A stretch of DNA of 64,000 nucleotides from Myxococcaceae bacterium (GTDB lineage Bacteria; Myxococcota; Myxococcia; Myxococcales; Myxococcaceae): positions 1-64,000 of the forward strand of contig JAEUJQ010000058.1 of NCBI GenBank assembly GCA_016793095.1, given 5' to 3'. Of the stretch, positions 4,337 through 51,887 are shown piece by piece. The position numbers were made by a program, and so were the translations under genes. Under the pieces are notes generated by a model that made no database searches, was not told the DNA's origin, and saw only the letters and a program-made list of their open reading frames with translations. Position 1 is the first letter of the stretch; every line of letters starts with the position of its first letter.

Positions 4337-4480
4337 GCGCGTGACGGCTTCACGAGACGTGCCACACTCCAGTCATGCCAAGAGGCTTGACGCGACCCTC
4401 TGAGCGCTCACGATCCCGAGGCGTTCGCGGCGAACAACGACGGGCCTGGTGTCACCTCGCGTGAACACTGGACCGCGCCC

Positions 4481-4875
4481 GCGAGAACAAGTCCGTCCCC
4501 CGTCAGCCGGGCTCGGGTTGTTCTCGGCGTTGTCGAAGGTCGAAGTTCGCTGACTCGGACCGGGGCCGCGAGAACAAGTCCGTCGCCCGCCAGCGTGGCT
4601 CAGGTTGTTCTCGGCGTTGTCGAAGGTCGAAGCTCGCTGACTCGGACCGGGGCCACGAGAACAAGTCCGTCGCCCGCCATGGTGGCTCAGGTTGTTCTCG
4701 GCGTTGTCGAAGGTCGGTGCTTCCTCGCTCGGACCGGAGCCGCGAGAACAAGTCCGTCACCCGTCAGCGTAGCTCAGCCTGTTCTCGGCGGTGTCGAAGG
4801 TCGGTGCTTCCTCGCTCGGACCGGAGCCGCGAGAACAAGTCCGTCACCCGTCAGCGTGGCTCAGGGTGTTCTCGG
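4481..4875. repeat. Tandem 87-bp repeat, five hairpins (array 2)
   Basis: Five hairpin cores of 47 nt begin at 4481, 4568, 4655, 4742 and 4829, an exact 87-bp period. Each begins GCGAGAACAAG or a close variant and ends TTGTTCTCGG or a close variant. The arms CGAGAACAA/TTGTTCTCG enclose about 29 nt of mostly unpaired sequence. The roughly 40-bp connectors are also conserved, and the last two differ together from the first two, which suggests recent unit duplication. The ends match arrays 1 and 3 but the interior does not. Confidence 0.9.
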
Positions 4876-4967
4876 CGTTGTCGTAGGTCGCTCCTCGCTG
4901 GGACTGGAGTCGTGAGCGTCGCGTTCTGGGGCAAGCGGGCGCGCCACTGATGCGCGACCTGAGGCCC

Positions 4968-20954: not shown

Positions 20955-23243
20955 TCAGCGCACGCGCCGGCGGAGGAGGCCCAGGGCGAGCAACAGCAGC
21001 GGCGAGAGCTCGGCCGACGAGCACCCGAGGCAACCGCTCGCCGGCGGCTTCGCGACGCACTGGCCCATGCTGCACGTCTGCGTCGTCGCGCAGGAGCGGC
21101 ACTCGGCGCCACCCATGCCGCAACGCTCGCTCGACGCGAACGTCACGCAGACGCCGCTCATGCAGCAGCCAGAGCAGTTCGTCGCACCGCAGGTGAGGGA
21201 GGCGCCCGCGCCGGTGCCTCCTCCTGTGACCGAGCCTCCGCCAACGGCCGAGCCGCCCGCCGCCGAGCCGCCTCCCGCTGAGCCGCCTGCCGCCGACCCA
21301 CCTCCCGCTGAGCCACCTCCCGCTGAGCCACCTCCCGCTGAGCCGCCTGCCGCCGAGCCACCTCCCGCCGAGCCGCCTCCCGCCGAGCCACCTCCCGCCG
21401 AACCACCTCCCGCCGAGCCACCTCCCGCCGAACCACCTGCCGCCGAGCCACCTCCCGCGGCGCCCCCGCCAGCCGCCCCACCGCCCGCCGACCCACCGCC
21501 CGTCCCACCGCCGGGGAGACAGACATTGGTGCCGCTCAGGTTCGTGCAGGTGAAGCCGCTCGCGCACGGCACTGGCGCGGTCGGCGTGCAGAGGGTGCGG
21601 CAGGTTCCGGACACGCAGCGCAGGCCGTTCGCGCAGATGGCGATGGGCGGGGTCACCGGACAGGCCTGGCCTTCCTGGGCGATCTCGGCCGCGCCGCACG
21701 CGCAGACGCCACCGCCGCCAGAGAGCGGTCCGCATGCCGGGCAGGTGCCGGGGCTCGACGGGTTACAGGGCGCGCGACACAGGCCGGCGACGCAGAGGAG
21801 GCCCGACTGGCAGGGCGTCGTCCCACTGCAGGCCTGGCACAACGCTGCGCCCGACGCGGGCACGCACACGCGCGCGGTGTCACTCGACAGCCCGACGCAC
21901 TGGGTGCCGGAGCCGCACGTCGTCGCGGTGCACCCCATGCACGAGCCCATGCCGTTGCAGCACGCCCGGCAGAACGCCAGGTTCGCGTCCATCGCGTCGG
22001 TGATGCACATGCCGCACATGTTGCAGACGCCCGACACGTCGCAGCGGTCTCCGACGTTGCCCGTCGGCGTGCAGGTGCCGTTGGTGCAGCCGTAGCCCGG
22101 CGCGCAGTCGGTCGCGACCGTCGCCGGCGTGCACTGGTTGGTGCAGGCGTTCATCGGCACGCAGTACGACGAGCTGCCAGCCGTGGAGCACTGGTACCCC
22201 GGGCCGCAGGCGTTGGTGACGGACGGGTTGCAGGTCGAGGAGCACCAGTTGAACCCGTTGCCGTCGGTGAGGCAGTGGCCCGTCGAGCAGTCGGCGCCCG
22301 ACGCGCAGAACCGGCACAGATCCGACGCCCCCAGCTGCGGCAGGCACGCAAAGCCGGCCGTCGAGGCCTGACACGTGAAGCCCGTCGGGCACGGCGCCCC
22401 GGCGGCGGCGCAGTCCTGCGTGCAGATGAGGTTGGTCGAGCCGGTCGGCCCCTCACACACCCGGCCCCCCGTGCACTGAGACGGCAGCGAACAGGCCGCG
22501 CCCTGACCGCCTGACGCGCCCGGGTACATGGTGCACAGATCGCTGATGTCCGGCGCGAGCAGGTTGCGCTTGATGGTGCCGGCGCCGACCGACGGGTTCA
22601 TCACCGCGTTGCCCGACGTCGTGTGATCGAGCCCGATGAAGTGGCCCGCCTCGTGGGTGACGACCGACTCGTAGTCGATGGCCGACGAGCGCCCATCGCT
22701 GGCCCAGGCGGTGTTGTTGTTCAGCTCCATGTCGGCGTCGGTGATCTCACCCGGGAAGAACGAGGTGATGGTGACGCCCAGGGTGCCGCTGCCGTGCCGC
22801 CAGAAGTTCCCTCCGAGCCAGATGACGTTGTTGTTGCCGTCGTTCCCGTTGATGGCCGTGGTGCCGGTCGGCGAGGCGTAGGTGCCCTGGTACTCGAAGT
22901 TCATCGAGGTGCCGCAGGTGAGCGAGGTGTTCGCGACCGACCAGCGGGCGAAAGACGCCTGCATGCCGGTCAGCACCGCCGAGTAGGGCACCTGCTGCGC
23001 GCCGTTGAGCACCGTGGCGCTCGTGCCTGAGCCGGTCGAGGTGGTGCGGTTCCAGACGGCCGTGGCGAAGCGCACCTCGGGGTAGCACCTGCCGGTGAGG
23101 CAGGTGAGGTTCTGGCTCGTCTGGTTGGTGGCGCGGACGCGGCACGTGGTGCTGCACGGGTCGAGGGGCCAGCGCTGCGAGCTGGGGTTCGCCAGGGCCG
23201 AGGCGCCGGCCAGCAGCGCGAAGGCGAGGACGACGCGGCTCAT
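20955..23243 (-). CDS. Matrixin-like metalloprotease with Cys-rich region and MYXO-CTERM tail
   Basis: This 762-residue secreted protein has a signal peptide ending ASALA. A metzincin domain follows with the zinc site HEAGHFIGLDH at 197-207 and a Met-turn NAVMNPS. A long region of Cys-rich modules (about 230-560) follows. Then comes a Gly/Ala/Ser tandem linker made of GGGSAGGGSA-type units, another Cys-rich module, and the C-terminal GCLGCSS motif, hydrophobic helix and RRRVR. That tail is the MYXO-CTERM signal for surface anchoring. The start overlaps the stop of the upstream gene by 4 bp (ATGA), so the two are coupled. Likely role: surface protease for predation or matrix turnover, by inference. 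Confidence 0.9.
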   Translation of the reverse strand: MSRVVLAFALLAGASALANPSSQRWPLDPCSTTCRVRATNQTSQNLTCLTGRCYPEVRFATAVWNRTTSTGSGTSATVLNGAQQVPYSAVLTGMQASFARWSVANTSLTCGTSMNFEYQGTYASPTGTTAINGNDGNNNVIWLGGNFWRHGSGTLGVTITSFFPGEITDADMELNNNTAWASDGRSSAIDYESVVTHEAGHFIGLDHTTSGNAVMNPSVGAGTIKRNLLAPDISDLCTMYPGASGGQGAACSLPSQCTGGRVCEGPTGSTNLICTQDCAAAGAPCPTGFTCQASTAGFACLPQLGASDLCRFCASGADCSTGHCLTDGNGFNWCSSTCNPSVTNACGPGYQCSTAGSSSYCVPMNACTNQCTPATVATDCAPGYGCTNGTCTPTGNVGDRCDVSGVCNMCGMCITDAMDANLAFCRACCNGMGSCMGCTATTCGSGTQCVGLSSDTARVCVPASGAALCQACSGTTPCQSGLLCVAGLCRAPCNPSSPGTCPACGPLSGGGGVCACGAAEIAQEGQACPVTPPIAICANGLRCVSGTCRTLCTPTAPVPCASGFTCTNLSGTNVCLPGGGTGGGSAGGGAAGGGAAGGGSAAGGSAGGGSAGGGSAGGGSAGGGSAGGGSAAGGSAGGGSAGGGSAGGGSAAGGSAGGGSAAGGSAVGGGSVTGGGTGAGASLTCGATNCSGCCMSGVCVTFASSERCGMGGAECRSCATTQTCSMGQCVAKPPASGCLGCSSAELSPLLLLALGLLRRRVR

Positions 23244-29300: not shown

Positions 29301-30293
29301 GAACCGCACGGTCGCGCTGCTCGTGATGGAGAACGGGCCCAGGTACCTGGGCGACGCGGTGGTGGGGGTGGAGCCGTCGGTCGTGTAGTGGGTGTTCGCG
29401 CAGCCCGAGCCGCCGGTGTCCGTGCAGGTGAGCACCACCGACTGGGCCGTGCGGAAGGTGCCGCCCGCGGGGCTCGCGGTGGTGACGGGCTGCTGGGTGT
29501 CGAAGAGGAACGACGCCGAGCCGGACACCTCTGGGTTGCCAGCCACGTCGACAGAGAAGTACCGGACGGTCAGCGACGTCGAGACGGTGAAGGGCCCGGT
29601 GTACCGGGTGGACAGCGTCGTGGGCGGGCTCCCGTCGGTCGTGTACCAGGTCGCCGCGCAGCCGCTGCCGACGTCTGAGCACGAGAGCGTCACCTGCCTC
29701 GGGTTGTTGAAGGCGCCGCCGGGCGGCGTGATGGTCGTCACCGGCGGAGTGACGTCGACGGATCCGCCCGCGCTGCCGCCTGCAGTCCCGCCCGCGCTGC
29801 CGCCTGCATTCCCGCCTGCGCTTCCGCCCGCGCTGCCGCCTGCGCTTCCGCCCGCGCTGCCGCCTGAGCTCCCGCCCGCGCTGCCGCCTGAGCTCCCGCC
29901 CGCGCTGCCGCCAGCAGTCCCGCCCGCGCTGCCGCCAGCAGTCCCGCCTGCGTTCCCCCCGCCTGCGTTTCCGCCCGCACTGCCGCCGCCAGCACCTCCT
30001 GCGGCACCGCCAGCGTCACCTCCCGCGGCTCCGCCGGCGCTCGCACCACCAGATGCGCCACCACCGACGCCACCACCCATCGCCGAGCCACCGGCGACAC
30101 CGCCTGCCGATCCTCCGGCGGTGCCGCCACCCGACCCGCCGGCTTGCGCCGTTCCACCAGCAGAGCCGCCAGCCGCTCCGCCGGCAGCGCTCGTCCCTCC
30201 GCCGGTCACGCCACCATCGCCGGCGTTCGACTCACCACACGAGCAACCGGCGACAAACACCACCGCCGCGAGGGCGCCGATTCGGAAGTACAT
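26391..30293 (-). CDS. Giant surface lipoprotein: Gly linker, chitobiase-C-like modules, SbsA-Ig, propeller
   Basis: This 1300-residue protein starts at ATG 30293, before a signal ending FVAGC. A linker of about 150 residues made of GGSAGG-type repeats follows. Three modules of about 90 residues then show YTTDGSxPTT followed by RYFSxDxAGN, the CHB_HEX_C_1 (chitobiase/beta-hexosaminidase C-terminal) signature. Next is one SbsA-type Ig-like domain (TAPTVVSVSPANG ... VVLRFSEALD). The last 700 residues are repeats with V-x-[AV]W and FDG-x-W motifs, probably beta-propellers. A TACGAT box lies 6 bp before the ATG with no clear SD. Probably a surface adhesin or glycan-binding protein. Confidence 0.82.
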   Translation of the reverse strand: MYFRIGALAAVVFVAGCSCGESNAGDGGVTGGGTSAAGGAAGGSAGGTAQAGGSGGGTAGGSAGGVAGGSAMGGGVGGGASGGASAGGAAGGDAGGAAGGAGGGSAGGNAGGGNAGGTAGGSAGGTAGGSAGGSSGGSAGGSSGGSAGGSAGGSAGGSAGGNAGGSAGGTAGGSAGGSVDVTPPVTTITPPGGAFNNPRQVTLSCSDVGSGCAATWYTTDGSPPTTLSTRYTGPFTVSTSLTVRYFSVDVAGNPEVSGSASFLFDTQQPVTTASPAGGTFRTAQSVVLTCTDTGGSGCANTHYTTDGSTPTTASPRYLGPFSITSSATVRFFSIDAAGNFEGINTVTFVIDTFPPVTRALPDAGTYTSAVLLTLSCLDFQSGCAETRYTLDGGVPSASSLLYSGPVALTRSTTVRYFSTDNAGNAEIPFASTYVINDTTAPTVVSVSPANGVVTSPLADVVLRFSEALDPATVNPSTITVSGVMGTVWWDAPTLAAIFTPLAPFPSGTGFTVTVTTGVRDLVGNPLAANFTSSFSTRPPSTPVAAMGAASMEASSAAFLPNGDGFAAWTEFTGSHCRTLYSTYSAATGLWSAETVLPGSTSRTNLLACVSAPRVVSGAGRLLLFSQATVRVVVGGVPGPAIALPFVPDRWDIAASATGFMAVWQVFDTTSSFWFTRAASFDGATWSAPATLAQGFADTVEIAASTDRFMVATASASGTVRTAFFNGTAWEPTVTQGMTTATAASVASNGVDFRLVFDSAGTTLSRTFSGGAWSAPVSFGTGGSAIYGLRVGFGGGRYVALRLDISGMVAAALDTGAGFSTLSPIFPGAATGRRLLLGFAGSTPVAVWELVNGTSWTSRYTTAWSTPQQLTAGAGSPLRPSLASGATSATITFDALTPTAVQIFAVRDDGASLSAPVGLVQSTHPASVLGADFAAAANGTAVIAWATWQQRTPVVLASVGTTAGSFGAPFIVGTNRTGVKVSAHDTDFVFITNALPTPRHLFVRVLTPPATLGGELQLSTNEPTATVSTATIGTGAGTRTLAVWGERDGSNFSIYGRSLYQGSWTPRLTFEAFATPTSRPLVAAHPTLGFRVAFGAGSHAWATPYTGTGASFAVGTPLQLSTTSAFTAPDVGLASNATGFMAAWTQTSSLGTRRSTSTAWAPEATVTGSFAAPVLAPSGAEFLLASAPGTRVVSLRSTPTGWATPTVFDNAPLAATGLQLAATATSTRAGYLSATPRTGTGVWTFAVDTLGVFSPAALANDTPGVRQLVLAPSGAAFWQAWISPVAGPESALDELRWQLEP

Positions 30294-35065: not shown

Positions 35066-36208
35066 GTGACGGGCCGCGACGACAGACTCACCCTGTGGGG
35101 GCTCGTGCTCAGCCTGGGGCTGCACGCCGCGGTGTTCGTCGGCGTCGCGCTCGCTCCCGAGCGTGACTCGCCCGGCAAGGCGAGCCGCATCACCCTGGTG
35201 GAGATCGAGCTGCCAGAAGAGGCGCCGCCTCCGCCTCCCCAGCCCCGCGAGCCCGAGTCGGCCCCGCTGAAGACGGTGCGTCCCGACCGCAAGCGTCCAC
35301 CGAGCCGCGTCGAGGTCGAGCCCGTCGAGCCCCGCCTCGCCAACGACCGGCCCTCCGCCGATGCCCCGACCACGGAGCAGCCGCTCCGACCGCCGGCCCT
35401 CGAGCGCCCGTCGCTCATCCCCGGCGGCGCCTTCGCGCTGTCCCTCGACGCGGGCGTCTTCGAGGAGCCCCTCGAGCCTGGCGGACTCAGGGCGCCCAGC
35501 ATCTCGAAGGACCTGGTGGGCGACCTCACCCGCGAGACCATCGGCCGCGGCAAGGTCGATCGCGGGCTCGTGCACCCCTACTACGTGCAGCTCGGCAAGG
35601 CGCTCATCAAGCACTGGGACGCCGACCGCGCCGTCTCGAAGAAGGGCCTCGCCGGCTTCGGCGAGCAGTTCGTGCAGAACTCGAAGGTGTTCAACGAGAT
35701 CTGGCTCGACAAGGCCGCGCAGTTCGGCGCGACGGGCGCGCCCATCGACGCGCCGGTGTCGAACGACAACGCCAGCCGGCGAACGGCGACCGTCACCAAC
35801 AACATTCAGGGCATCGGCGGCGTCGACCTCGAGGCGCGCAAGGAGGTCTCGCGGCAGATGCGGGAGCAGTTCAAGGCGACCCGCCGCGCCACCATTCGCG
35901 TCACCCAGGACCTGAGCGGCAAGCTGATGAAGGTCGAGCTGGTCTCGCCCTCCAACGACGCTGCGGTGGACAAGGAGGCGCTCGCCGACGTGCGCGCCGC
36001 GGCCGAGCAACTGCCGCCGCCGCCTGAGGAGGTGCTCGACGGGAAGAAGGAGCTCATCAGCACCTGGGCCTTCGAGCTGGTCGTCAGCATCACCCCGCCG
36101 GTGCCCACCTTCACGTTCGAGTTCGACGAGGCGCTGGGCTTCATCGACGCGCGGCTGCCGCTGGACCGCCGCATCTACAAGAAGGTCCGCCTCGTCTCGG
36201 TGGATTGA
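35066..36208 (+). CDS. TonB-like energy-transducer family protein
   Basis: This 380-residue protein begins at a GTG with one N-terminal membrane helix (LWGLVLSLGLHAAVFVGVAL), then a Pro-rich stretch (EEAPPPPPQPREPE). The C-terminal part, around VTQDLSGKLMKVELVSPSNDAAVDKEALADVR, matches TonB C-terminal domains. It probably spans the periplasm and couples the proton-motive force to an outer-membrane receptor, but no ExbB/ExbD or receptor is adjacent. The next gene starts on the base after its stop. A TAGTGT box lies 13 bp before the GTG. Confidence 0.8.
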   Translation: MTGRDDRLTLWGLVLSLGLHAAVFVGVALAPERDSPGKASRITLVEIELPEEAPPPPPQPREPESAPLKTVRPDRKRPPSRVEVEPVEPRLANDRPSADAPTTEQPLRPPALERPSLIPGGAFALSLDAGVFEEPLEPGGLRAPSISKDLVGDLTRETIGRGKVDRGLVHPYYVQLGKALIKHWDADRAVSKKGLAGFGEQFVQNSKVFNEIWLDKAAQFGATGAPIDAPVSNDNASRRTATVTNNIQGIGGVDLEARKEVSRQMREQFKATRRATIRVTQDLSGKLMKVELVSPSNDAAVDKEALADVRAAAEQLPPPPEEVLDGKKELISTWAFELVVSITPPVPTFTFEFDEALGFIDARLPLDRRIYKKVRLVSVD

Positions 36209-36710: not shown

Positions 36711-37343
36711 ATGAACACGCTCCTCCGCGCTTCGGTCGTCATCCTCTTCACGCTGTCTGGCTGCGGTGCCATGGACATGACGCCGGACGGGGGCGCATCG
36801 GGCGGTGGCTCAGCAGCGGGCGGCTCGGCGGCGGGCGGCTCGGCGGCGGGCGGCTCAGCGGCGGGCGGCTCAGCGGCGGGCGGCTCGGCGGCAGGCGGCT
36901 CGGCGGCGGGTGGCTCGGCGGCGGGTGGCTCGGCCGGCGGCGGCTCGGCGGCGGGTGGCTCGGCCGGCGGCGGCTCGGCGGCGGGTGGCTCGGCCGGCGG
37001 CGGCTCGGCGGGTGGCGGCTCAGGGGGAGGCAGCGCGCAGGTGAGCTTCATGACCCAGGTCGCGCCCATCCTCACCGCCCGCTGTGGCTCCTGCCACGGC
37101 TTCGTAGACACCGCGGGCGCGAACACGTTCGTCCGCGGAAACGCGAGCCGCCCCTCGTGCAGCAGCGTCGGCGCGCGCATCGTCGCGAGCAACGCGACCG
37201 GCAGCCTCCTCTACCAGAAGGTCGCGGGAACTCAGACGTGCGGCGGGCGCATGCCGCCAAACTGCACCGGCAACAACTGCGTGCCGCAGAATCAGATCGA
37301 CCTGATCCGCGACTGGATCAACGCCGGCGCGCCGAACAACTGA
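36711..37343 (+). CDS. Cytochrome-c-like lipoprotein with Gly/Ala/Ser linker
   Basis: This 210-residue lipoprotein has a signal ending TLSGC (Cys 18). Residues about 27-105 are tandem GGSAAGGSA units encoded by 18-30 bp DNA repeats. The mature domain opens VSFMTQVAPILTARCGSCHG, the usual start of planctomycete-type cytochrome C domains, with the haem motif CGSCH. RMPPNC and LIRDWINAGAP near the end are also typical. It probably carries haem at the outer surface or periplasm. It lies 127 bp before the HhH/barrel operon and may or may not be part of it. Confidence 0.85.
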   Translation: MNTLLRASVVILFTLSGCGAMDMTPDGGASGGGSAAGGSAAGGSAAGGSAAGGSAAGGSAAGGSAAGGSAAGGSAGGGSAAGGSAGGGSAAGGSAGGGSAGGGSGGGSAQVSFMTQVAPILTARCGSCHGFVDTAGANTFVRGNASRPSCSSVGARIVASNATGSLLYQKVAGTQTCGGRMPPNCTGNNCVPQNQIDLIRDWINAGAPNN

Positions 37344-37470: not shown

Positions 37471-39723
37471 ATGCGCCCGGTCATCGCCTCCGCGATCCTC
37501 CTGCTGTCGCTGACCGCGCGCGCTGCCATCTACGAGACGGTCGTCAACGCCGACGACGAAGACGACGTCTTCAACATGTACCAGCGCGGCGACATCTCGA
37601 CCGAGACCGCCGACACGCTGCTCGAGCTCATCCGCGAGGGCGTGGACCTCAACTCGGGCAGCCGGGAGCGCCTGTACGATCTGCCCGGCCTCACCTACGC
37701 CGATGTCGATCGCATCATCGCGTACCGCACGCAGAAGGGGCGCATCGAGGACCCGGCGGAGCTCGTCGGCGCCGAGGCCATCACGGCCGAACAGCTCATC
37801 CAGATCGCCCCCTTCATCCGCCTCGACGCCGCGCAGCCGAAGTGGCCGGTGAGCGGGAAGGTGCGCGCCGTCAGCCAGTACACGGCCGGCGACACGGTCG
37901 CGCCACCGGCGATGCTCTCGGGCACCTTCAAGGGCCCGTGGGACCTCTCGGCGGGCTTCATGGCGATGACGTCGCGCCGCATCCCCGCGCCCGTGAAGTA
38001 CGACCCGGTGCTCGACGCGCTCGTCACCGACGGCTTCAGGTACATGCCGCACCTGCCGCGCTTCTTCCTGCAGTGGCAGAACTCGAACCGGAAGGTGATC
38101 GTCGGCACCTTCACCCTGGGCTTCGCCGAGCGCCTCACCCTCGACAACACGCGGCGACTGACTCCGAAGGGCATCTACCTCACCAACGACTTCCGCCGGC
38201 CCATCGACTTGACGCGCACGTGCCGCGTCTCCGGCGACCCCATCGTGGGCGAGTGCGAAGGCGGTGAGACGAACCGGTACATCACGGCCGACTACGACTG
38301 GCGCGAGGTGTTCCGGGGCATCGCTGCCAGCCTCGAGAACCTGGACCTCGGCGACCAGCGCTCGTTGTCGATGTACGGGTTCCTCTCGTTCCAGAGCCGC
38401 AGCCTGTACCAGTACGAGCTGTTCGACCGGCGGTACTGTGACGACCCGAACAGCACCGACGAGTCGTGCAAGTCGCCCACCGTGTACTTCAACGCAGGCG
38501 CGAACACCGGCGCCTCGCGGCTCACCTTCTCGACCCTGCCGTACCTCTTCAACGAGCTCGCCGGCGGCGGGCACGTGGACTTCAAGCCGAACTACCGCTT
38601 CCGCTTCGGGCTCACCGGCTACGCGGCCGCGCCGCTCTTCGACGTCGTCGCGCCAGGCACCGCCGCGCCCTTCAACGGCTATCCCCAGCTCGACTTCCAG
38701 GAGTGGAGCCGGTACCCGAACGGCGGCCCCTTCGGCGCCATCGGCCTCGACGGGCAGGCCGTGTGGAACGAGCTCAACTTCCACCTCGAGGTGGCCCGCA
38801 GCTTCGATCGCTCCGTGGGCAACCAGGGCGGCGGCTTCGCGGCGCTGCAGCGCACCACCTGGGCGCCGAAGGGCCACGAGGTCGAGCTCAGCTTCCGCTA
38901 CTACGACAACCACTTCCTGAACCCGTACGCGCGCCCCTTCTCCGGCCCGGACGAGGAGTCGGGCCAGCGCGCCCGCAACGAGCTCGGCGCGCGCCTGCGC
39001 TATTTCGGCCGCTGGAGCCGCGACTGGGAGTTCAAGTCGCGCGTCGACTTCTGGATGCTGCCCTTCGACAGCCCGCGCGTCGGCCCCGCGGGCATGACGA
39101 ACCTCTTCGCCGTCGCGCGCCTCGACTTCACCGGCTGGAAGTTCTTCGAGCCGGCCGTCTGGGTGGACCTGCGCAACCGCAACCTCGCCTCCAGCACCCA
39201 CGGCAAGTGCGCGCCGGGCACCATCGTCATCCCCATTCGCGTCAACTCGACCGAGGGCGGTGACATTCTGCTGAACCCCGATCAGCCGTTCGACTGCTCC
39301 GGTGACTTCTACCGCGTCGCTGAGCGCCTCGAGTTCCGTCCGCTGCCCAACCGCCTGCTCACCATCATTCAGCAGGGCTGGCTCACCTGGAAGGACGACA
39401 TCCGCTACAAGGATCGCTTCCGGCTCGACGTGCAGACCTGGGTCGAGGTGCGGAGCGAGCCGGTGGACTGGCTCGACCTGCGCCTGCGCAGCCGCTACCT
39501 CTTCCAGGACGTCAACGACAACACCTACCTCGAGCAGTCACTGTGGACGACGGCCGAGGCGGTCTGGACTCCCCGGAAAGGCACCCGCCTGGGCTTCCGC
39601 TACGACCTCTATGTGTGGCTGGATAGACGCCGGACCACCTGGAACGAACTCGACGGGGTGCCGGCCCGTTCGCCCTTCCCCGAACATCGCCTCCTCGTCG
39701 ACCTGCGCGCGAGCTTCCCATGA
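37471..39723 (+). CDS. Exported ComEA-type HhH protein with outer-membrane beta-barrel
   Basis: This 750-residue protein has a signal peptide cleaved near residue 18. Residues about 58-117 form a tandem helix-hairpin-helix like ComEA, the DNA receptor of natural transformation: VDLNSGSRERLYDLPGLTYADVDRIIAYR with the LPGL hairpin. The remaining 630 residues alternate short amphipathic strands rich in Tyr, Trp, Phe and Arg with turns, and end in Phe-Pro, as in an outer-membrane beta-barrel of about 20 strands. It could bind DNA in the periplasm or pass it through the barrel. Its stop overlaps the next ATG by 4 bp. A TAGGGT box lies 10 bp before the ATG. Confidence 0.82.
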   Translation: MRPVIASAILLLSLTARAAIYETVVNADDEDDVFNMYQRGDISTETADTLLELIREGVDLNSGSRERLYDLPGLTYADVDRIIAYRTQKGRIEDPAELVGAEAITAEQLIQIAPFIRLDAAQPKWPVSGKVRAVSQYTAGDTVAPPAMLSGTFKGPWDLSAGFMAMTSRRIPAPVKYDPVLDALVTDGFRYMPHLPRFFLQWQNSNRKVIVGTFTLGFAERLTLDNTRRLTPKGIYLTNDFRRPIDLTRTCRVSGDPIVGECEGGETNRYITADYDWREVFRGIAASLENLDLGDQRSLSMYGFLSFQSRSLYQYELFDRRYCDDPNSTDESCKSPTVYFNAGANTGASRLTFSTLPYLFNELAGGGHVDFKPNYRFRFGLTGYAAAPLFDVVAPGTAAPFNGYPQLDFQEWSRYPNGGPFGAIGLDGQAVWNELNFHLEVARSFDRSVGNQGGGFAALQRTTWAPKGHEVELSFRYYDNHFLNPYARPFSGPDEESGQRARNELGARLRYFGRWSRDWEFKSRVDFWMLPFDSPRVGPAGMTNLFAVARLDFTGWKFFEPAVWVDLRNRNLASSTHGKCAPGTIVIPIRVNSTEGGDILLNPDQPFDCSGDFYRVAERLEFRPLPNRLLTIIQQGWLTWKDDIRYKDRFRLDVQTWVEVRSEPVDWLDLRLRSRYLFQDVNDNTYLEQSLWTTAEAVWTPRKGTRLGFRYDLYVWLDRRRTTWNELDGVPARSPFPEHRLLVDLRASFP

Positions 39724-40841
39724 CGACGCCCCTCCGCACCGCCCTGCTGGCCACCCTGCTCCTCTGCGGCTGCGCCACCACCGAGCAGACGAAGCGCTAC
39801 ACGCAGGACGAAGCGCGCTCCCTGCTCAAGCGGCTCGAGGTGGTGAGCCTCGAGCTGGGCGAGTTCCCCATCGACGGCGCGTCTTCGGTGCTCGACGGCG
39901 ACACCATCAAGGTGAAGGGCCTGCCCGCCTCTCTCCGCCTGCTCGGCATCGACACCGAGGAGACCTTCAAGAAGGACAAGGAGCGCGCCGCCTTCGCCGC
40001 CGGCTGGGAGCAGTACATGAAGAAGATGCGCGGCGACTCGCCCCGGCCGACGAAGTACGCCACCCCGCTGGGCGAAGACGCCAAACACTTCGCGCAGGCC
40101 TTCTTCGAAGACGTGCGCACCGTGCGGCTCGAGCGCGACCACCCCGGCGAGGTGCGCGACTTCTACAACCGCTACCTCGCCTACGTCTTCGCGAAGAAGA
40201 ACGACCAGTGGGTGAACTACAACCTCGAGTGCGTACGCGCGGGCTTCACGCCCTACTTCATGAAGTACGGGCGCAGCCGCCGCTTCCACAAAGAGTTCGT
40301 CGAGGCAGAGCGGGAGGCCCGCGAGGCGCAGCGCGGCATCTGGAAGCCCGGCGCCATGGCGTACCCCGACTACGACGAGCGACTGAAGTGGTGGGGTGAA
40401 CGCGAGGCCGTCATCACGCGCTTCGAGAAGGCCGCCCAGGAGCGCCCCGAGGACTTCGTCGCGCTCACCCGGTGGGACTCCATGCTCAAGCTCGAGGGCA
40501 AGGTCGGCCAGGAGGTCACCATTCTCGGCTCGGTGAGCGACGTGAAGTACAGCCAGGGCAACGGCCCCTCGGTGGTGAAGCTCTCGCGCACCCGCACCAG
40601 CGACTTCGACGTCGTCTTCTTCGATCGCGACGTCATGCTGTCCACCGGCATCCAGTTCAAGAAGAGTGAATATGTGCAGGTGCGCGGTACCGTGCAGAAG
40701 TACAAGAACGAGAAGGGCTGGGAGAAGCTGCAGGTGGTGGTGAACCTGCCGGGGCAGGTGCTGGCGCCCTCCAGCCAGCTCGAGCAGTTGTTGACCGACG
40801 AGAACAAGCAGCGGGCCGAGCGTGACGAAGAGGACGACTGA
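39720..40841 (+). CDS. Thermonuclease (SNase-fold) lipoprotein
   Basis: This 373-residue lipoprotein has a signal ending LLCGC (Cys 18). Residues about 45-210 are a staphylococcal-nuclease fold: DGDT at 59-62, then R73-LLGI-D78-TE-E81 and a later NRYLAYVF, corresponding to Asp 21, Arg 35, Asp 40, Glu 43 and Arg 87 of the staphylococcal enzyme. The active site therefore looks complete. A C-terminal part (about 250-350) resembles an OB-fold (VTILGSVSDVKYS, YVQVRGTVQKY). It would cut DNA or RNA at the cell surface. It is coupled upstream to the HhH/barrel gene and downstream to the lamin-tail gene. Confidence 0.88.
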   Translation: MTTPLRTALLATLLLCGCATTEQTKRYTQDEARSLLKRLEVVSLELGEFPIDGASSVLDGDTIKVKGLPASLRLLGIDTEETFKKDKERAAFAAGWEQYMKKMRGDSPRPTKYATPLGEDAKHFAQAFFEDVRTVRLERDHPGEVRDFYNRYLAYVFAKKNDQWVNYNLECVRAGFTPYFMKYGRSRRFHKEFVEAEREAREAQRGIWKPGAMAYPDYDERLKWWGEREAVITRFEKAAQERPEDFVALTRWDSMLKLEGKVGQEVTILGSVSDVKYSQGNGPSVVKLSRTRTSDFDVVFFDRDVMLSTGIQFKKSEYVQVRGTVQKYKNEKGWEKLQVVVNLPGQVLAPSSQLEQLLTDENKQRAERDEEDD

Positions 40842-42677
40842 GTGAACGCCTTGTTTCGAGTGACGATGCCCCTCGGGGCGCTGGTGCTGGTCGCCTCCTG
40901 CGGGCCTCCGACGCCGATGCCGACGGACGCCTGCAAGGGCCGCGTGGCCGGCGACCTGGTGATCTCCGAGCTGATGCTCGACCCCGATGGCACCGACACC
41001 GGCGGCGAGTGGGTCGAGCTCTTCAACACCCTCGGCACCCCCATCGACCTGCGCGGCTACACCATCACCTACCGGCAGGGGACCTCGACCGCGAAGTCCC
41101 ACACCGTTCGCGCCTCGGTGACGATCCCCTCGCGCGGGTACCTCGCGCTCGGAGACGTGCGCTCGGGGCCGAACCCCTCATGGGTGGGCTACAGCTACGG
41201 TGACGACCTCGGCAGCTTCAGCCAGTCGAGCGGCACCGTCGGCGTCCGCTGCGGCATGACGGTGCTGAACGAGTACACGTACACCCGCAGCGCGCGCTCG
41301 GGCCGTTCACGCATGCTGGGCGGCAACGCCGACCCCGACGCGAGCCGCGTGGCCAACGAGACGAACTGGTGCGACACGCCGACCTCGACCGAGTACGCGC
41401 CCCGCAACTACGGCACGCCCGGCGGCCCCAACCCCCAGTGCGCGCCCGAGGCCATGCTGGGCACCTGCCTGCAGAACGGCGTGCCCCGGCCCATCGTCGC
41501 CGCCGAGGCGGGCGATCTGATCATCTCGGAGGTGATGGCGAGCCCAGGCGTGGCGAGCGACACCGTCGGCGAGTGGTTCGAGGTCTACGCCACCACCGAC
41601 GTCGACCTGAACGGCGTGTCCATCGGCACCAGCACGAGCCGCACCACGCTCAACTCGATGGACTGCATCACCGCGCAGGCGAACTCGTACAACCTGCTCG
41701 CGCGGTCGGCGGACTCGTTCGTGAACGGCCTGCTGCCGGCGCCGCTGGTCACTTTCTCGCTCGGCCTGTCGGGCACCAACGAGCGCCTGCGCCTGTTCCG
41801 CGGCGACGCGGGCATCGACGAGGCGGCCTTCTTCGCGTCATCGAGCGGGGTGTCGTGGCAGCTCAGCCCCAACCTCCTCATCGACCCGGTGCGTCCCGAG
41901 GTGAACGACCAGCCGCAGGCCTTCTGCAAGGCGACCGGCCCATGGCCCGACGGCGGTGGCGACTGGGGGACTCCGGGGGCGCCCAACACGACGTGCCCGC
42001 CGGACAGCGGCGTCTTCCCGGATCCCGACGCGGGCATGCCCGACGCGGGCCCGATGCCGGGGCCGAACGAGTGCATCGACGGCACGACGATGATGATCCG
42101 GGCGCTCGACCGGCCAGCGATGGGTGACCTCGTGCTGACCGAGGTGATGCCCGACCCGCAGGCCGTCGATGACACCGTCGGCGAGTACTTCGAGGTGCTC
42201 GTGAAGCGGGACGTGGACCTGAAGGGCGTGTCGTTCGGCAGCGAGGCGTGGGTGCTCCCGGCGGCGCACACTGCGTCGAACGGCATCACGCTCGGGGGCA
42301 ACGCCTGCCGCCGCGTCACCGCGGGCACGTACCTCGTCTTCGCGCGCAACAACCAGGCGAGCGTCAACGGGGGCCTCTCGACGGTCTACGAGACCTTCAG
42401 CTTCGGGCTGTCGAACTCCGGCGCGCTGTCGCGGCACGTGAAGGCAGTCAGCCAGGGCGTCGAGCTCGACCGGCTCGCCTTCCCGCTCACGGCGACCGCG
42501 ACGCCCGGCGCCTCGATTCAGCTCAACGCTGGCCTGACCGACGTCACCGACAACGACAACGCCGCGAACCTGTCGCTGACGCCCACCACCTCGCGCTACG
42601 GCGGCACCGCCCTCCCTGATGGTGGGGTGACGGGCGGCGACCGCGGCACGCCAGGCCTCGCCAACGTCCCCCCGTGA
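40842..42677 (+). CDS. Lipoprotein with three lamin-tail domains
   Basis: This 611-residue lipoprotein starts at a GTG directly after the preceding stop and has a signal ending LVASC (Cys 20). Three lamin-tail (LTD) domains begin near residues 37, 224 and 427, each with GDLVISE or GDLIISEVM, then GEWVELFN or GEWFEVYA or GEYFEVLV. LTDs are Ig-like folds often found in secreted bacterial nucleases and surface proteins and may bind DNA or anchor enzymes. A Gly/Pro/Asp linker (PDPDAGMPDAGPMPG) separates the second and third. It lies between the two nuclease genes. Confidence 0.88.
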   Translation: MNALFRVTMPLGALVLVASCGPPTPMPTDACKGRVAGDLVISELMLDPDGTDTGGEWVELFNTLGTPIDLRGYTITYRQGTSTAKSHTVRASVTIPSRGYLALGDVRSGPNPSWVGYSYGDDLGSFSQSSGTVGVRCGMTVLNEYTYTRSARSGRSRMLGGNADPDASRVANETNWCDTPTSTEYAPRNYGTPGGPNPQCAPEAMLGTCLQNGVPRPIVAAEAGDLIISEVMASPGVASDTVGEWFEVYATTDVDLNGVSIGTSTSRTTLNSMDCITAQANSYNLLARSADSFVNGLLPAPLVTFSLGLSGTNERLRLFRGDAGIDEAAFFASSSGVSWQLSPNLLIDPVRPEVNDQPQAFCKATGPWPDGGGDWGTPGAPNTTCPPDSGVFPDPDAGMPDAGPMPGPNECIDGTTMMIRALDRPAMGDLVLTEVMPDPQAVDDTVGEYFEVLVKRDVDLKGVSFGSEAWVLPAAHTASNGITLGGNACRRVTAGTYLVFARNNQASVNGGLSTVYETFSFGLSNSGALSRHVKAVSQGVELDRLAFPLTATATPGASIQLNAGLTDVTDNDNAANLSLTPTTSRYGGTALPDGGVTGGDRGTPGLANVPP

Positions 42678-43474
42678 AGCGCGGAGCTGCTTCAGGCGAG
42701 GTGAGGCACACCTTGCGCGCGGAGCACGGCGCCCCTCGCGCGCGGCAGGTGACGCCCAGCGCGAGGCAGGAGGCTCCCAAAGCGAGGCAGGAGGCTCCCA
42801 AAGCGAGGCAGGTGACTCCCAGCGCGAGGCAGGTGACTCCCAGCGCGAGGCAGGAGCCTCCCAGCGCGAGGCAGGAGCCTCCCAGCGCGAGGCAGATGAC
42901 TCCCAGCGCGAGGCAGGTGACTCCCAGGGCGAGGCAGGTGACTCCCAGCGCGAGGCAGGAGCCTCCCAGCGCGAGGCAGGAGCCTCCTCCTGGCACGCGG
43001 CTCGCGCTCGCCTCGGCGCTGGCGCTGCTCGCCGTCGCGTGCGCCCCGCCGAGCGTGTGCGGGGCGACGACGGCGACGGTCGACCGTGCCGTAGACGGCG
43101 ACACGCTGGAGCTGTCGGACGGCAAGAAGGTGCGCCTGCTGCTGGTGGACGCGCCCGAGACGACGAGCGGGAAGAACGACTGCTTCGGGCAACAGGCCGC
43201 GCAGTTCACCGCCGACCGCGTCACGGGGCGAGCAGTGCAGCTCACCTACGACGAGGCCTCGTGTCAGGACCGCTTCGGCCGGCTGCTCGCCTACGTGAAG
43301 GCCGACGGCGTCGAGCTCAACAAGGCGCTCGTCGAGCAGGGCCTCGCGTGTGTGCTGTACGTCGCGCCCGCCGGCCAGAGTCGTCGCGAGGAGTTCGAGA
43401 CCCTGGTGTCTCAGGCGAAGACGAGCCGCGTCGGCATGTGGGGGCAGTGCGCGAGTGTGCCGTGTGACAAGTGA
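42674..43474 (+). CDS. Second SNase-fold nuclease with N-terminal heptad minisatellite
   Basis: This 266-residue frame starts at a GTG that overlaps the previous stop (GTGA). Residues about 22-105 are twelve heptads of the type PSARQVT or PSARQEP, and residues 109-123 are a lipoprotein-like signal ending LLAVAC. If the first GTG is used, the repeats precede the membrane segment and stay cytoplasmic; any of several in-frame GTGs in the repeats (last near 42938) would give a more normal lipoprotein. Residues about 134-262 are a full SNase domain with DGDT, VRLLLVDAPET and DRFGRLLAYV, all catalytic residues present. It is the last gene of the coupled operon. Confidence 0.8.
   Translation: MKRGAASGEVRHTLRAEHGAPRARQVTPSARQEAPKARQEAPKARQVTPSARQVTPSARQEPPSARQEPPSARQMTPSARQVTPRARQVTPSARQEPPSARQEPPPGTRLALASALALLAVACAPPSVCGATTATVDRAVDGDTLELSDGKKVRLLLVDAPETTSGKNDCFGQQAAQFTADRVTGRAVQLTYDEASCQDRFGRLLAYVKADGVELNKALVEQGLACVLYVAPAGQSRREEFETLVSQAKTSRVGMWGQCASVPCDK
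42740..42985 (+). repeat. 21-bp minisatellite in the second nuclease gene
   Basis: About twelve copies of a 21-bp unit (core GCGAGGCAGGTGACTCCCA and variants with GAGCCTCCC or GAGGCTCCC) run in frame as a heptapeptide repeat. Variants are grouped (pairs of identical units adjacent), as expected from slippage or unequal exchange. Each GTGACTCCC unit carries an in-frame GTG. Confidence 0.88.
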
Positions 43475-47214: not shown

Positions 47215-48473
47215 TTCGTGAAGCTGCGCGTGAACATCACGTTGCCCGTCTCACCGTAGAACGTGCCCGTGAAGGTGCGGCCGTTGAGCTCGACGTAGAG
47301 GAAGCCCAGGTTCGTCGTCTGGAAGTGCACCGGGTTCTTCATGTCCACCGTCGTCGCCGAGGCGCCGCCGCCCGAGACGAGCAGGTGCGTTCCGTTGCAG
47401 GTCGGCGTGAGCCACTGGAGCGAGTGGTCGTGCCCCGAGAGGTAGACGTCTGCGCGGCCGCAGACGATGGTCTCCATGAAGTTCTTGATGTGTCGGCCAT
47501 CGGTGAACAGGGGCAGCGACACGCACTGGCCCAGCACCTCGCGGCAGTCGTAGTTCCCCGCGTTCCCGTGGGGACCGTTCGAGCGATAGGGGTGGTGGCC
47601 GAGGGCGATCTTCCACGTCGCGGTGGAGGCGCCGAGCCACGCGTTGATGTCGGCGCGCGTCTGCGTGTCACCAGAGCCGTTGGGGCCCCAGAAGCTGCGG
47701 TTGGTGTCGAGCGCGAAGAACTCGGCGTGGCCCTGGGTGAAGCGGTAGTGGACCGCCGGCATCCGCCACTTCGGGTTGGTCTGGCTGTAGGCGACCTGCA
47801 CGTCGGCCTTCTGCGCCTCGTAGCCCGCGCCGTCGCCGCCGTAGTCGTGGTTCCCCAGCACCGGGTAGAACGGCACACTCACCGTCGCGTAGGGCTGCAC
47901 GAAGGCCGTCTGCCACAGCGGGTCCGTCGCCGAGGAGACGCCCGAGGGGTAGAAGTTGTCCCCCAGCATCACCACGAAGTCGCAGCCCCGCTGCGCGCAG
48001 ATGGAGCCGATGGCCTGCCCGACGGCGTTCTGACCGGTGTTCGCCTTGCCGGTGTCTCCGATGGCGACGAAGCGGACGATGGAGGCGCCACCCGCGGCAC
48101 CACCCGCCGTCGCGGAGCCGCCCGCCGTCGCCGAGCCGCCCGCCGTCGCGGAGCCGCCTGCCGTCGCGGAGCCGCCCGCCGTCGCCGAGCCGCCCGCCGT
48201 CGCCGAGCCGCCCGCCGTCGCGGAGCCGCCAGCCACCGACCCACCTGCCGTCGCAGACCCACCTGCCGTCGCGGACCCACCCGCCGCCGTGGACCCGCCC
48301 GCCGTCGCAGATCCCCCAGCTGCAGCGCCGCCCGCCGTCGCGGAGCCGCCCGCCGCCGCCCCGCCGGCTGTCGAAGCTCCACCGGCCGCACCGCCGCCAG
48401 TGCCGGACGTGGAAGACGACCCCGCGCAACCGACGAGGGTGAGGAACAACACGATCAGCAACGCACGGGTCAT
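47211..48473 (-). CDS. Metallophosphoesterase lipoprotein with Gly/Ala/Ser linker
   Basis: This 420-residue lipoprotein has a signal ending TLVGC. Residues about 25-130 are GGSATAGGSA-type tandem repeats. The rest is a purple-acid-phosphatase-like metallophosphoesterase with all five motifs: IGDTG, LGDNFY, LGNHDYG, GHHPY and SGHDHSL. It probably removes phosphate from organic esters outside the cell. It is coupled to ybaK downstream. The DNA of the linker is a set of short tandem repeats. Confidence 0.9.
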   Translation of the reverse strand: MTRALLIVLFLTLVGCAGSSSTSGTGGGAAGGASTAGGAAAGGSATAGGAAAGGSATAGGSTAAGGSATAGGSATAGGSVAGGSATAGGSATAGGSATAGGSATAGGSATAGGSATAGGSATAGGAAGGASIVRFVAIGDTGKANTGQNAVGQAIGSICAQRGCDFVVMLGDNFYPSGVSSATDPLWQTAFVQPYATVSVPFYPVLGNHDYGGDGAGYEAQKADVQVAYSQTNPKWRMPAVHYRFTQGHAEFFALDTNRSFWGPNGSGDTQTRADINAWLGASTATWKIALGHHPYRSNGPHGNAGNYDCREVLGQCVSLPLFTDGRHIKNFMETIVCGRADVYLSGHDHSLQWLTPTCNGTHLLVSGGGASATTVDMKNPVHFQTTNLGFLYVELNGRTFTGTFYGETGNVMFTRSFTK

Positions 48474-51146: not shown

Positions 51147-51887
51147 ATGAAGACCTCTCACGCGCTGCTCCTCGGACTCACCTTCGGTCTTTTCGCCGCG
51201 ACCGCCGTCTCGTGTGGCGGCTCCCGCGCCTGCTCGCCAACGACGTGCCCGACCGGGTGCTGCAGCACGTCGGGGCTGTGTGAGTCGGGAAGCTCCGGCA
51301 CGGCCTGTGGGTCACGCGGGGCAGCCTGCACGAGCTGCGGCGTCACCGCGACCTGCATCGCGGGCGCCTGCATGCAGGGCGGTCTCGGCAGCACGGGCGG
51401 CGGTTCATCGGCTACGGGAGGCGGCAGCGCAGCGGGCGGCAGCGCAGCGGGCGGCAGCGCAGCGGGCGGCAGCGCGGCGGGCGGCAGCGCAGCGGGGGGC
51501 AGCGCGGCGGGCGGCAGCGCGGCTGGTGGGAGCGCGGCTGGTGGGAGCGCAGGCGGCAGCGCAGGCGGCGGCAGCGCGGGCGGGGCGACGGCCTTCTGTG
51601 CACGTCTCGAGGCGGCGATGACGCGGTTCTTCGCTGGCCGGAGCTCGTGTGGCGCGATGGGTGTCACGCTCACCAACAGCTTCAACGCGAGCGCATGCCG
51701 TGAGGGCTACCCGTCCTGCTCGAGCTTCGACATCCAGGCGCTCACCGCGGGCACCATGTGCATCGAGACCACGACGGTCTGCAGCACCGGCAACGACAGC
51801 GCCGCGATCCAGTCCATCTCGCCGTGCCTCGCGACCATCAGCGACATCTCGCCGACCTGCGCGGGGGCGATGGGCTTCGGGCCCTGA
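51147..51887 (+). CDS. Lipoprotein with Cys-rich head and Gly/Ala/Ser linker
   Basis: This 246-residue lipoprotein has a signal ending AVSC. Residues about 25-75 are a Cys-rich module (CSPTTCPTGCCSTSGLC) like those of the protein at 17969. Residues about 80-145 are GGSAAGGSA repeats, and the C-terminal 100 residues contain four or five more Cys but no recognised fold. Ten bp after its stop the convergent trxB gene ends. Function unknown. Confidence 0.82.
   Translation: MKTSHALLLGLTFGLFAATAVSCGGSRACSPTTCPTGCCSTSGLCESGSSGTACGSRGAACTSCGVTATCIAGACMQGGLGSTGGGSSATGGGSAAGGSAAGGSAAGGSAAGGSAAGGSAAGGSAAGGSAAGGSAGGSAGGGSAGGATAFCARLEAAMTRFFAGRSSCGAMGVTLTNSFNASACREGYPSCSSFDIQALTAGTMCIETTTVCSTGNDSAAIQSISPCLATISDISPTCAGAMGFGP

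Follow-up and report, generated by a model that had tools for sequence, protein, structure and literature searches.

What does a gene set do that joins an exported helix-hairpin-helix (HhH) protein with a predicted beta-barrel to lamin-tail and nuclease lipoproteins? The question is raised by positions 37471-43474 of a 64,000-nucleotide stretch of a Myxococcaceae genome (assembly GCA_016793095.1, contig JAEUJQ010000058.1, positions 1 to 64,000), the whole of which is referred to here as the window. Four closely spaced consecutive genes lie there on the plus strand, with the working names A (HhH and barrel), B (staphylococcal nuclease, SNase, with an OB fold), C (lamin-tail lipoprotein) and D (SNase lipoprotein). 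The evidence presented below supports the view that A, C and D, with B, form a coupled envelope operon. Tentatively, the set may act on nucleic acid at the outer membrane. The features discussed are the following.

37471..39723, plus strand: gene A, exported 750-residue protein with an HhH-type domain and a predicted outer-membrane beta-barrel
37636..37821, plus strand: HHH_3 domain of A (residues 56-117; Pfam, 1.1e-10), with the degenerate hairpin PGLT
37843..39720, plus strand: barrel-like region of A (residues 125-750), recognized by amphipathic segments and a beta-signal at its C-terminal end
39720..40841, plus strand: gene B, lipoprotein with an SNase domain and a probable OB fold; accessory member
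40515..40745, plus strand: probable OB fold of B (residues 266-342; PF01336 match)
40842..42677, plus strand: gene C, lipoprotein with three lamin-tail domains; closest companion of A
42674..43474 (open frame), plus strand: gene D, SNase lipoprotein; start codon uncertain, either 42674 or one of the GTG codons of the array (e.g., 42938)
42738..42987, plus strand: tandem array of 21-bp units, roughly 12 in number, in the reading frame of D at the C/D junction
43127..43444, plus strand: SNase domain of D (Pfam match and alignment)

A preliminary description, made from the letters of the window alone, had reported four consecutive genes joined by three tight junctions, and A, B, C and the open frame of D were all found within the positions it had given. 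The ATGA overlap of A and B (39720-39723) and the TGA-GTG junction of B and C (40839-40844) are likewise seen in the DNA, whereas the third junction, a GTGA at 42674-42677, is present but doubtful as the start of D.

Conservation of the gene set

Within the order, A was found in 86 of 145 sampled genomes and in 23 of their 46 genera, including all 27 sampled genomes of genus g20. It is a single match in 81 of the 86, the remaining five (G050, G054, G060, G068, G089) having two; the second match of G054 is a distinct copy, 41% identical. C matches 95 of the 145 genomes at E<=1e-5, or 86 once nine genomes with weak matches (seven of genus g8, G084 and G040; best E 1e-8 to 5e-6), treated as paralogues, are set aside. 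D is present in 81 genomes and B in 25. A and C occur together in 85 genomes, and the only genome with A and no C (G116) has A at a contig end. A and D occur together in 80, with six genomes carrying A without D (G054, G116, G126, G127, G128, G130) and one D without A (G142); both are missing from the seven g8 genomes and from six more of g2, g9, g12, g15 and g22. The order A-(B)-C-D on one strand is kept in 49 of 61 loci (the window and L032-L091), nine of the other 12 being truncated at contig ends and the remaining three (L047, L048, L070) carrying A and C without D. Two of these three, L047 and L048, belong to genus g24, whose small genomes (2.1-2.7 Mb) keep A and C, with D not found, a hint that A and C are the core of the set. 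Taken over the order, co-conservation of A, C and D is far beyond chance, and B is an accessory member.

The same linkage extends across the phylum, where the A profile (E<=1e-5) matched 111 of 195 sampled genomes, or 104 after seven HhH-only matches (five of g8, G156, G175) were dropped. At 18 loci from nine further families, C adjoins A in 15 and D does so in 13; two loci (L104, L112) are cut by contig ends, and two others (L117, L118) have C beside A and no D. Gene order varies among families: C'-B-C-D-A in f11 (full in four of seven loci), A-C'-B-C-D in f16, B-C-D-A in f10, and C-D-A without B in f26, f28 and f31. C' denotes a further lamin-tail lipoprotein gene that precedes B in f11 and f16 (L101, L103, L105, L106, L107, L108). 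That the linkage outlives these changes of order is the strongest evidence that A, C and D work together. In frame clusters drawn from 31 representative loci, the label counts are 30 for C, 29 for A, 28 for D (a cluster that includes f27 and f30, which were not confirmed by the D profile) and 15 for B; the remaining widespread clusters are shadow frames overlapping A-D, the widest outside neighbours reach about six labels, and no other neighbour is conserved comparably. The preliminary description had proposed a coupled gene set that was to fall if its genes were not co-conserved, and the neighbourhood check finds A, C and D as a same-strand module across Myxococcota.

Two further results are given for completeness. 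A single-sequence scan of genome contigs with A, which reaches close relatives only, returned one relative, and distance correlations among A, C and D (0.87-0.93, 42 loci), calculated without a control gene, are not used as evidence. Additionally, A was not found in plasmids, nor in viral contigs with the A1 profile.

Gene A as a predicted outer-membrane barrel

Several sequence features indicate that A is very probably an outer-membrane beta-barrel protein. Beyond its signal peptide, A ends in a C-terminal beta-signal: the last residue is Phe in 52 of 57 relatives, and positions -5, -7 and -9 from the C-terminus are hydrophobic in 98-100% of 53 relatives, within an alternation of hydrophobic and polar residues. 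An alternating C-terminal signal with a final Phe is what the BAM machinery reads. In addition, strongly beta-amphipathic segments number 18 in the 626-residue barrel-like region, whereas local shuffles give 4.9 +/- 2.0, as counted with the hydropathy of W and Y raised by hand so that aromatics count as membrane-facing; the controls show no excess (C, 4 vs 3.6 expected; B, 5 vs 6.4 expected). The barrel named in the preliminary description is supported on these indirect, sequence-based grounds. No TonB-dependent receptor, plug or SusD domain was found by Pfam in A, across its 57 relatives, or in C, and the barrel family of A may itself be new.

Two observations concern the surroundings of the barrel. 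Residues 30-55 of A (window 37558-37635), ahead of the HhH domain, match a SHOCT-like motif in five of the 57 relatives (best 9.5e-05). Upstream of A, at window 35066-36205, lies a gene for a TonB_2/TolA-like protein, relatives of which precede A in five genus labels (g1, g4, g13, g17, g26); energy coupling of this protein to A is conceivable.

The HhH domain and the question of transformation

A carries a tandem HhH of the ComEA family (HHH_3, 1.1e-10), and, among PDB entries, its profile finds ComE operon protein 1 (1.2e-07). The TIGR01259 score of A is far under its cut-off, and HHH_3 is recognized at E<=0.05 in only 33 of the 57 relatives. The hairpin of A reads PGLT, the second Gly of the GhG motif being replaced by Thr in 51 of 57 relatives and kept as Gly in one. 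The net charge of the HhH region is -4 in the window, and zero or below in 43 of the 57 relatives (positive in 14); over residues 20-118 it is negative in 56 of 57. Neither the GhG hairpins nor the basic surface of a DNA-binding HhH is found in A. Both are seen in a separate, canonical ComEA of the same genome, which has the hairpins PGVG and KGFG, is basic and carries a charge of +7; A was accordingly rejected as the ComEA of this genome. UvrC-type hairpins read PGIS, which calls for caution before the HhH of A is termed a non-binder.

The N- and C-termini of a barrel normally both face the periplasm, so that the HhH domain, being N-terminal to the barrel, should be periplasmic. Collectively, these features suggest a domain unlike a typical DNA binder, for which docking or gating would be a better fit. 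The label "ComEA-type" in the preliminary description therefore holds for the fold family and fails for the DNA-contact hairpin, where PGLT stands for GhG, and capture of DNA at the surface by this domain finds no support, given the altered hairpin, the mostly acidic character and the expected periplasmic side.

ComEC is also encoded in this genome. Its presence was considered as evidence for a role in transformation and set aside as uninformative, 134 of the 145 genomes carrying it (83 of 86 with A, 51 of 59 without A). Moreover, the seven g8 genomes without A and D all retain ComEC, and five of them also have a small ComEA-like HhH frame. Since ComEC is equally common where A is missing and is kept in the g8 genomes, its distribution speaks against a core role in transformation. 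The link to natural transformation drawn earlier is weakened by this distribution and by the separate ComEA.

Nucleases and lipoproteins

Pfam assigns the SNase family to B (2.8e-14) and D (4.6e-22), and alignments place all five catalytic positions, which we take to be numbered D21, R35, D40, E43 and R87, in both proteins, as the preliminary description had read them. The five are invariant across 19 aligned B sequences and also across 26 aligned D sequences, with the exception of the D40 position, where conservation in D is 90% or more. With both the fold match and the catalytic D, R, D, E and R in place, B and D look, from their sequences, like active lipoprotein nucleases. The OB fold of B scores 24.2 bits with PF01336, under the cut-off of 27, and the match recurs in 16 of 19 relatives of B at E<=0.05. 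In PADLOC, the candidate model 'SNc+LTD' matches B (5.3e-16) and D (1.7e-17) through the SNase domain only; A and C match nothing there, and the set does not match a known anti-phage system in that collection.

Pfam likewise finds its lamin-tail family, LTD, in three stretches of C (5.3e-23), in agreement with the three domains first described for this gene. The export and lipoprotein signals noted for all four proteins were also recovered: A has an export signal, and lipobox cysteines are visible by eye in B (LLCGC), C (LVASC) and D (LAVAC). A strict lipobox pattern is present in most sequences of each gene (B, 17 of 22; C, 39 of 56; D, 40 of 51), and the misses, among those listed (at most eight per gene), are near variants. 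None of the three has Lys at +2 or Ala at +7. The studies cited by PMC identifier are drawn on from excerpts, and what is said of them holds for the excerpted text. In Myxococcus xanthus, Lys at +2 occurs in 8 of 12 inner-membrane lipoproteins and Ala at +7 marks matrix lipoproteins (PMC3222651). By these rules, the sequences of B, C and D agree with an outer-membrane location.

The C/D junction and other repeats

A start of D at the GTGA would add about 105 residues, mostly encoded by the array, before the signal peptide of D, which with its lipobox lies behind the array, some 300 bp past the supposed start. The array comprises 11.9 units of 21 bp, some of which hold GTG codons usable as starts, and a two-unit probe pattern has seven matches in this genome, all within the array. 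Measured over 49 C-D pairs, the distance has a median of -4 bp and falls within -20 to +60 bp in 47, values that are approximate, the start codons of homologues being called heuristically; in L058 and L078 the supposed D is a match to B and was left out. Only the window pair is more than 150 bp apart (+260 bp with D started in the array), and aligned D relatives have no such N-terminal extension. Because C and D abut in relatives and the extension is lacking there, a GTG within the array, such as that at 42938, may be the start of D. The most economical account is the in-frame expansion of a minisatellite at a junction where C and D had at first been coupled.

Other repeats lie elsewhere in the window. 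The units of two arrays, at 4-469 (124-bp period) and 4466-4890 (87-bp period), share a CGAGAAC...GTTGTTCTCG-like inverted element and possibly belong to one palindromic-repeat family. Many GC-rich arrays of 12-18 bp units lie within genes (21247-21502, 29764-30143, 36807-37021, 48103-48398, 51420-51577); an example is the GGSAA repeats of a cytochrome-like lipoprotein just upstream of A.

What the gene set may do

The reading that we favour, with a little less than even confidence, is that A, C and D, with the frequent accessory B, form an outer-membrane complex that would degrade nucleic acid at the envelope and use the products. A would be the membrane platform and probably form a pore; its HhH-type domain, acidic for the most part, would dock or gate in the periplasm, and C, seated on A, would act as a binding lipoprotein or a scaffold. 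D, together with B, whose OB fold may hold the substrate, would cut DNA or RNA of lysed prey or of the matrix into short products, for which the barrel of A would be the likely entry route. The purpose would be scavenging, not genetic transformation. The SNase nucleases of the set point to nucleic acid as the substrate. The reading also gains from ExeM of Shewanella oneidensis, whose envelope nuclease is assisted by LTD and OB-type regions (PMC6085458).

Several observations weigh against this reading. No barrel family matches A above chance level in a family-profile search with its 57 relatives, and AlphaFold2, run on an alignment of two sequences only, gave a predicted local distance difference test (pLDDT) score of 30 for A (37 for B under the same limit), so that the pore role of A is one that we infer. 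Five loci (L047, L048, L070, L117 and L118) have A and C but lack D beside them; the nuclease is hence not indispensable, which a pure nuclease complex does not predict. A stands with neither C nor D in L110. C occurs without A in G051, a genome 98% complete, where a C orthologue lies at L092 8768-10436 and neither A nor D is present. The conserved neighbour set of the 31 representative loci contains no nucleotide-uptake gene. The tie between A and C appears closer than that between A and the nucleases and, by analogy, resembles barrel-lipoprotein pairs for nutrient uptake or lipoprotein export.

Among known systems, SusCD-type pairs are alike in that a barrel is closely paired with a lipoprotein and degradative lipoproteins are encoded in the operon, but the present set has no match to a TonB-dependent receptor, plug or SusD. 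ExeM resembles it in that an LTD, an OB-type region and a nuclease cooperate at the envelope, and differs as a single polypeptide with an EEP nuclease, for which the excerpted text names no barrel, HhH or SNase (PMC6085458). Halotolerant DNases, such as that of Thioalkalivibrio, are secreted nucleases with an HhH pair or an LTD, but these are alternatives fused to a DNase I-type nuclease, with neither barrel nor operon described in the excerpt (PMC4486849). An LTD is also named in a figure on the nucleases of marine degraders of extracellular DNA (eDNA) (PMC8289736). RA0C_RS02645 of Riemerella anatipestifer is, like A, an envelope HhH protein of a diderm bacterium; it differs in being predicted to be periplasmic, in having three HhH motifs, in being proven necessary for transformation and in that no fused barrel is named in the excerpted report (PMC8459023). 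A search of mostly non-subscription literature found no barrel with HhH beside SNase and lamin-tail lipoproteins, nor any paper combining 'lamin tail domain', 'nuclease' and 'Myxococcus', in line with the preliminary description, whose author knew of no described system so composed. The parts are known, the assembly is new, and the gene set is apparently undescribed.

Of the competing explanations, the one that survives best, although we consider it unlikely, casts A as a Slam-like exporter for C, D and B, which it would bring to the surface of the cell; the nucleases would be its cargo, and A would handle no nucleic acid. Slam and other DUF560 proteins (NilB, type 11 secretion) share the plan of a barrel that has a helical domain at its N-terminus, in the periplasm, and is encoded beside lipoproteins (PMC8406197), and all partners of A are predicted lipoproteins. 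Moreover, the HhH of A looks unsuited to DNA, and A keeps C where D is missing, as it would a preferred cargo. However, none of the 57 relatives of A matches DUF560 or TPR families (E<=0.05), LTD and SNase differ from the C-terminal eight-stranded barrels typical of Slam cargo (PMC8406197), and a domain whose hairpin is altered but whose HhH fold is kept does not demand cargo binding.

It is distinctly unlikely that the set is a surface nuclease shield or serves matrix remodelling, with B, C and D trimming biofilm eDNA or destroying phage and plasmid DNA while A anchors or organizes them. The matrix of M. xanthus biofilms contains eDNA (PMC9073016), and the PADLOC candidate does match B and D, but those matches rest on the SNase domain, with A and C left without any. 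A conserved 750-residue barrel would also be an odd anchor for proteins with lipid anchors of their own, and the single A match in most genomes that carry A and the phylum-wide spread are unlike mobile defence genes.

Very unlikely is a third explanation, in which A would be an outer-membrane DNA gate with a ComEA-like ratchet, the nucleases trimming DNA and ComEC completing uptake: the HHH_3 and ComEA matches, the presence of ComEC in nearly all genomes with A, the R. anatipestifer HhH protein needed for transformation (PMC8459023) and a periplasmic side that is the right one for a ratchet speak for it, but the altered hairpin and prevailing lack of positive charge, the canonical ComEA elsewhere, the retention of ComEC without A and the recognition of HHH_3 in only part of the relatives speak against it.

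Implications for Myxococcota

That the module is kept together phylum-wide despite reordering points to one shared function, and it contains an HhH domain that is apparently drifting away from DNA binding beside nucleases. It is possible, though we hold this with real reserve, that A founds a new family of outer-membrane translocons in Myxococcota, in which a periplasmic HhH-derived domain and a lamin-tail partner would serve nucleic-acid utilization. If so, the translocon would import short products or display its nucleases, and the logic of polysaccharide-utilization loci would be applied to DNA and RNA. Myxobacteria prey on other cells by lysing them, and the processing and uptake of nucleic acid as food at the diderm outer membrane, on which this gene set may bear, are poorly known.

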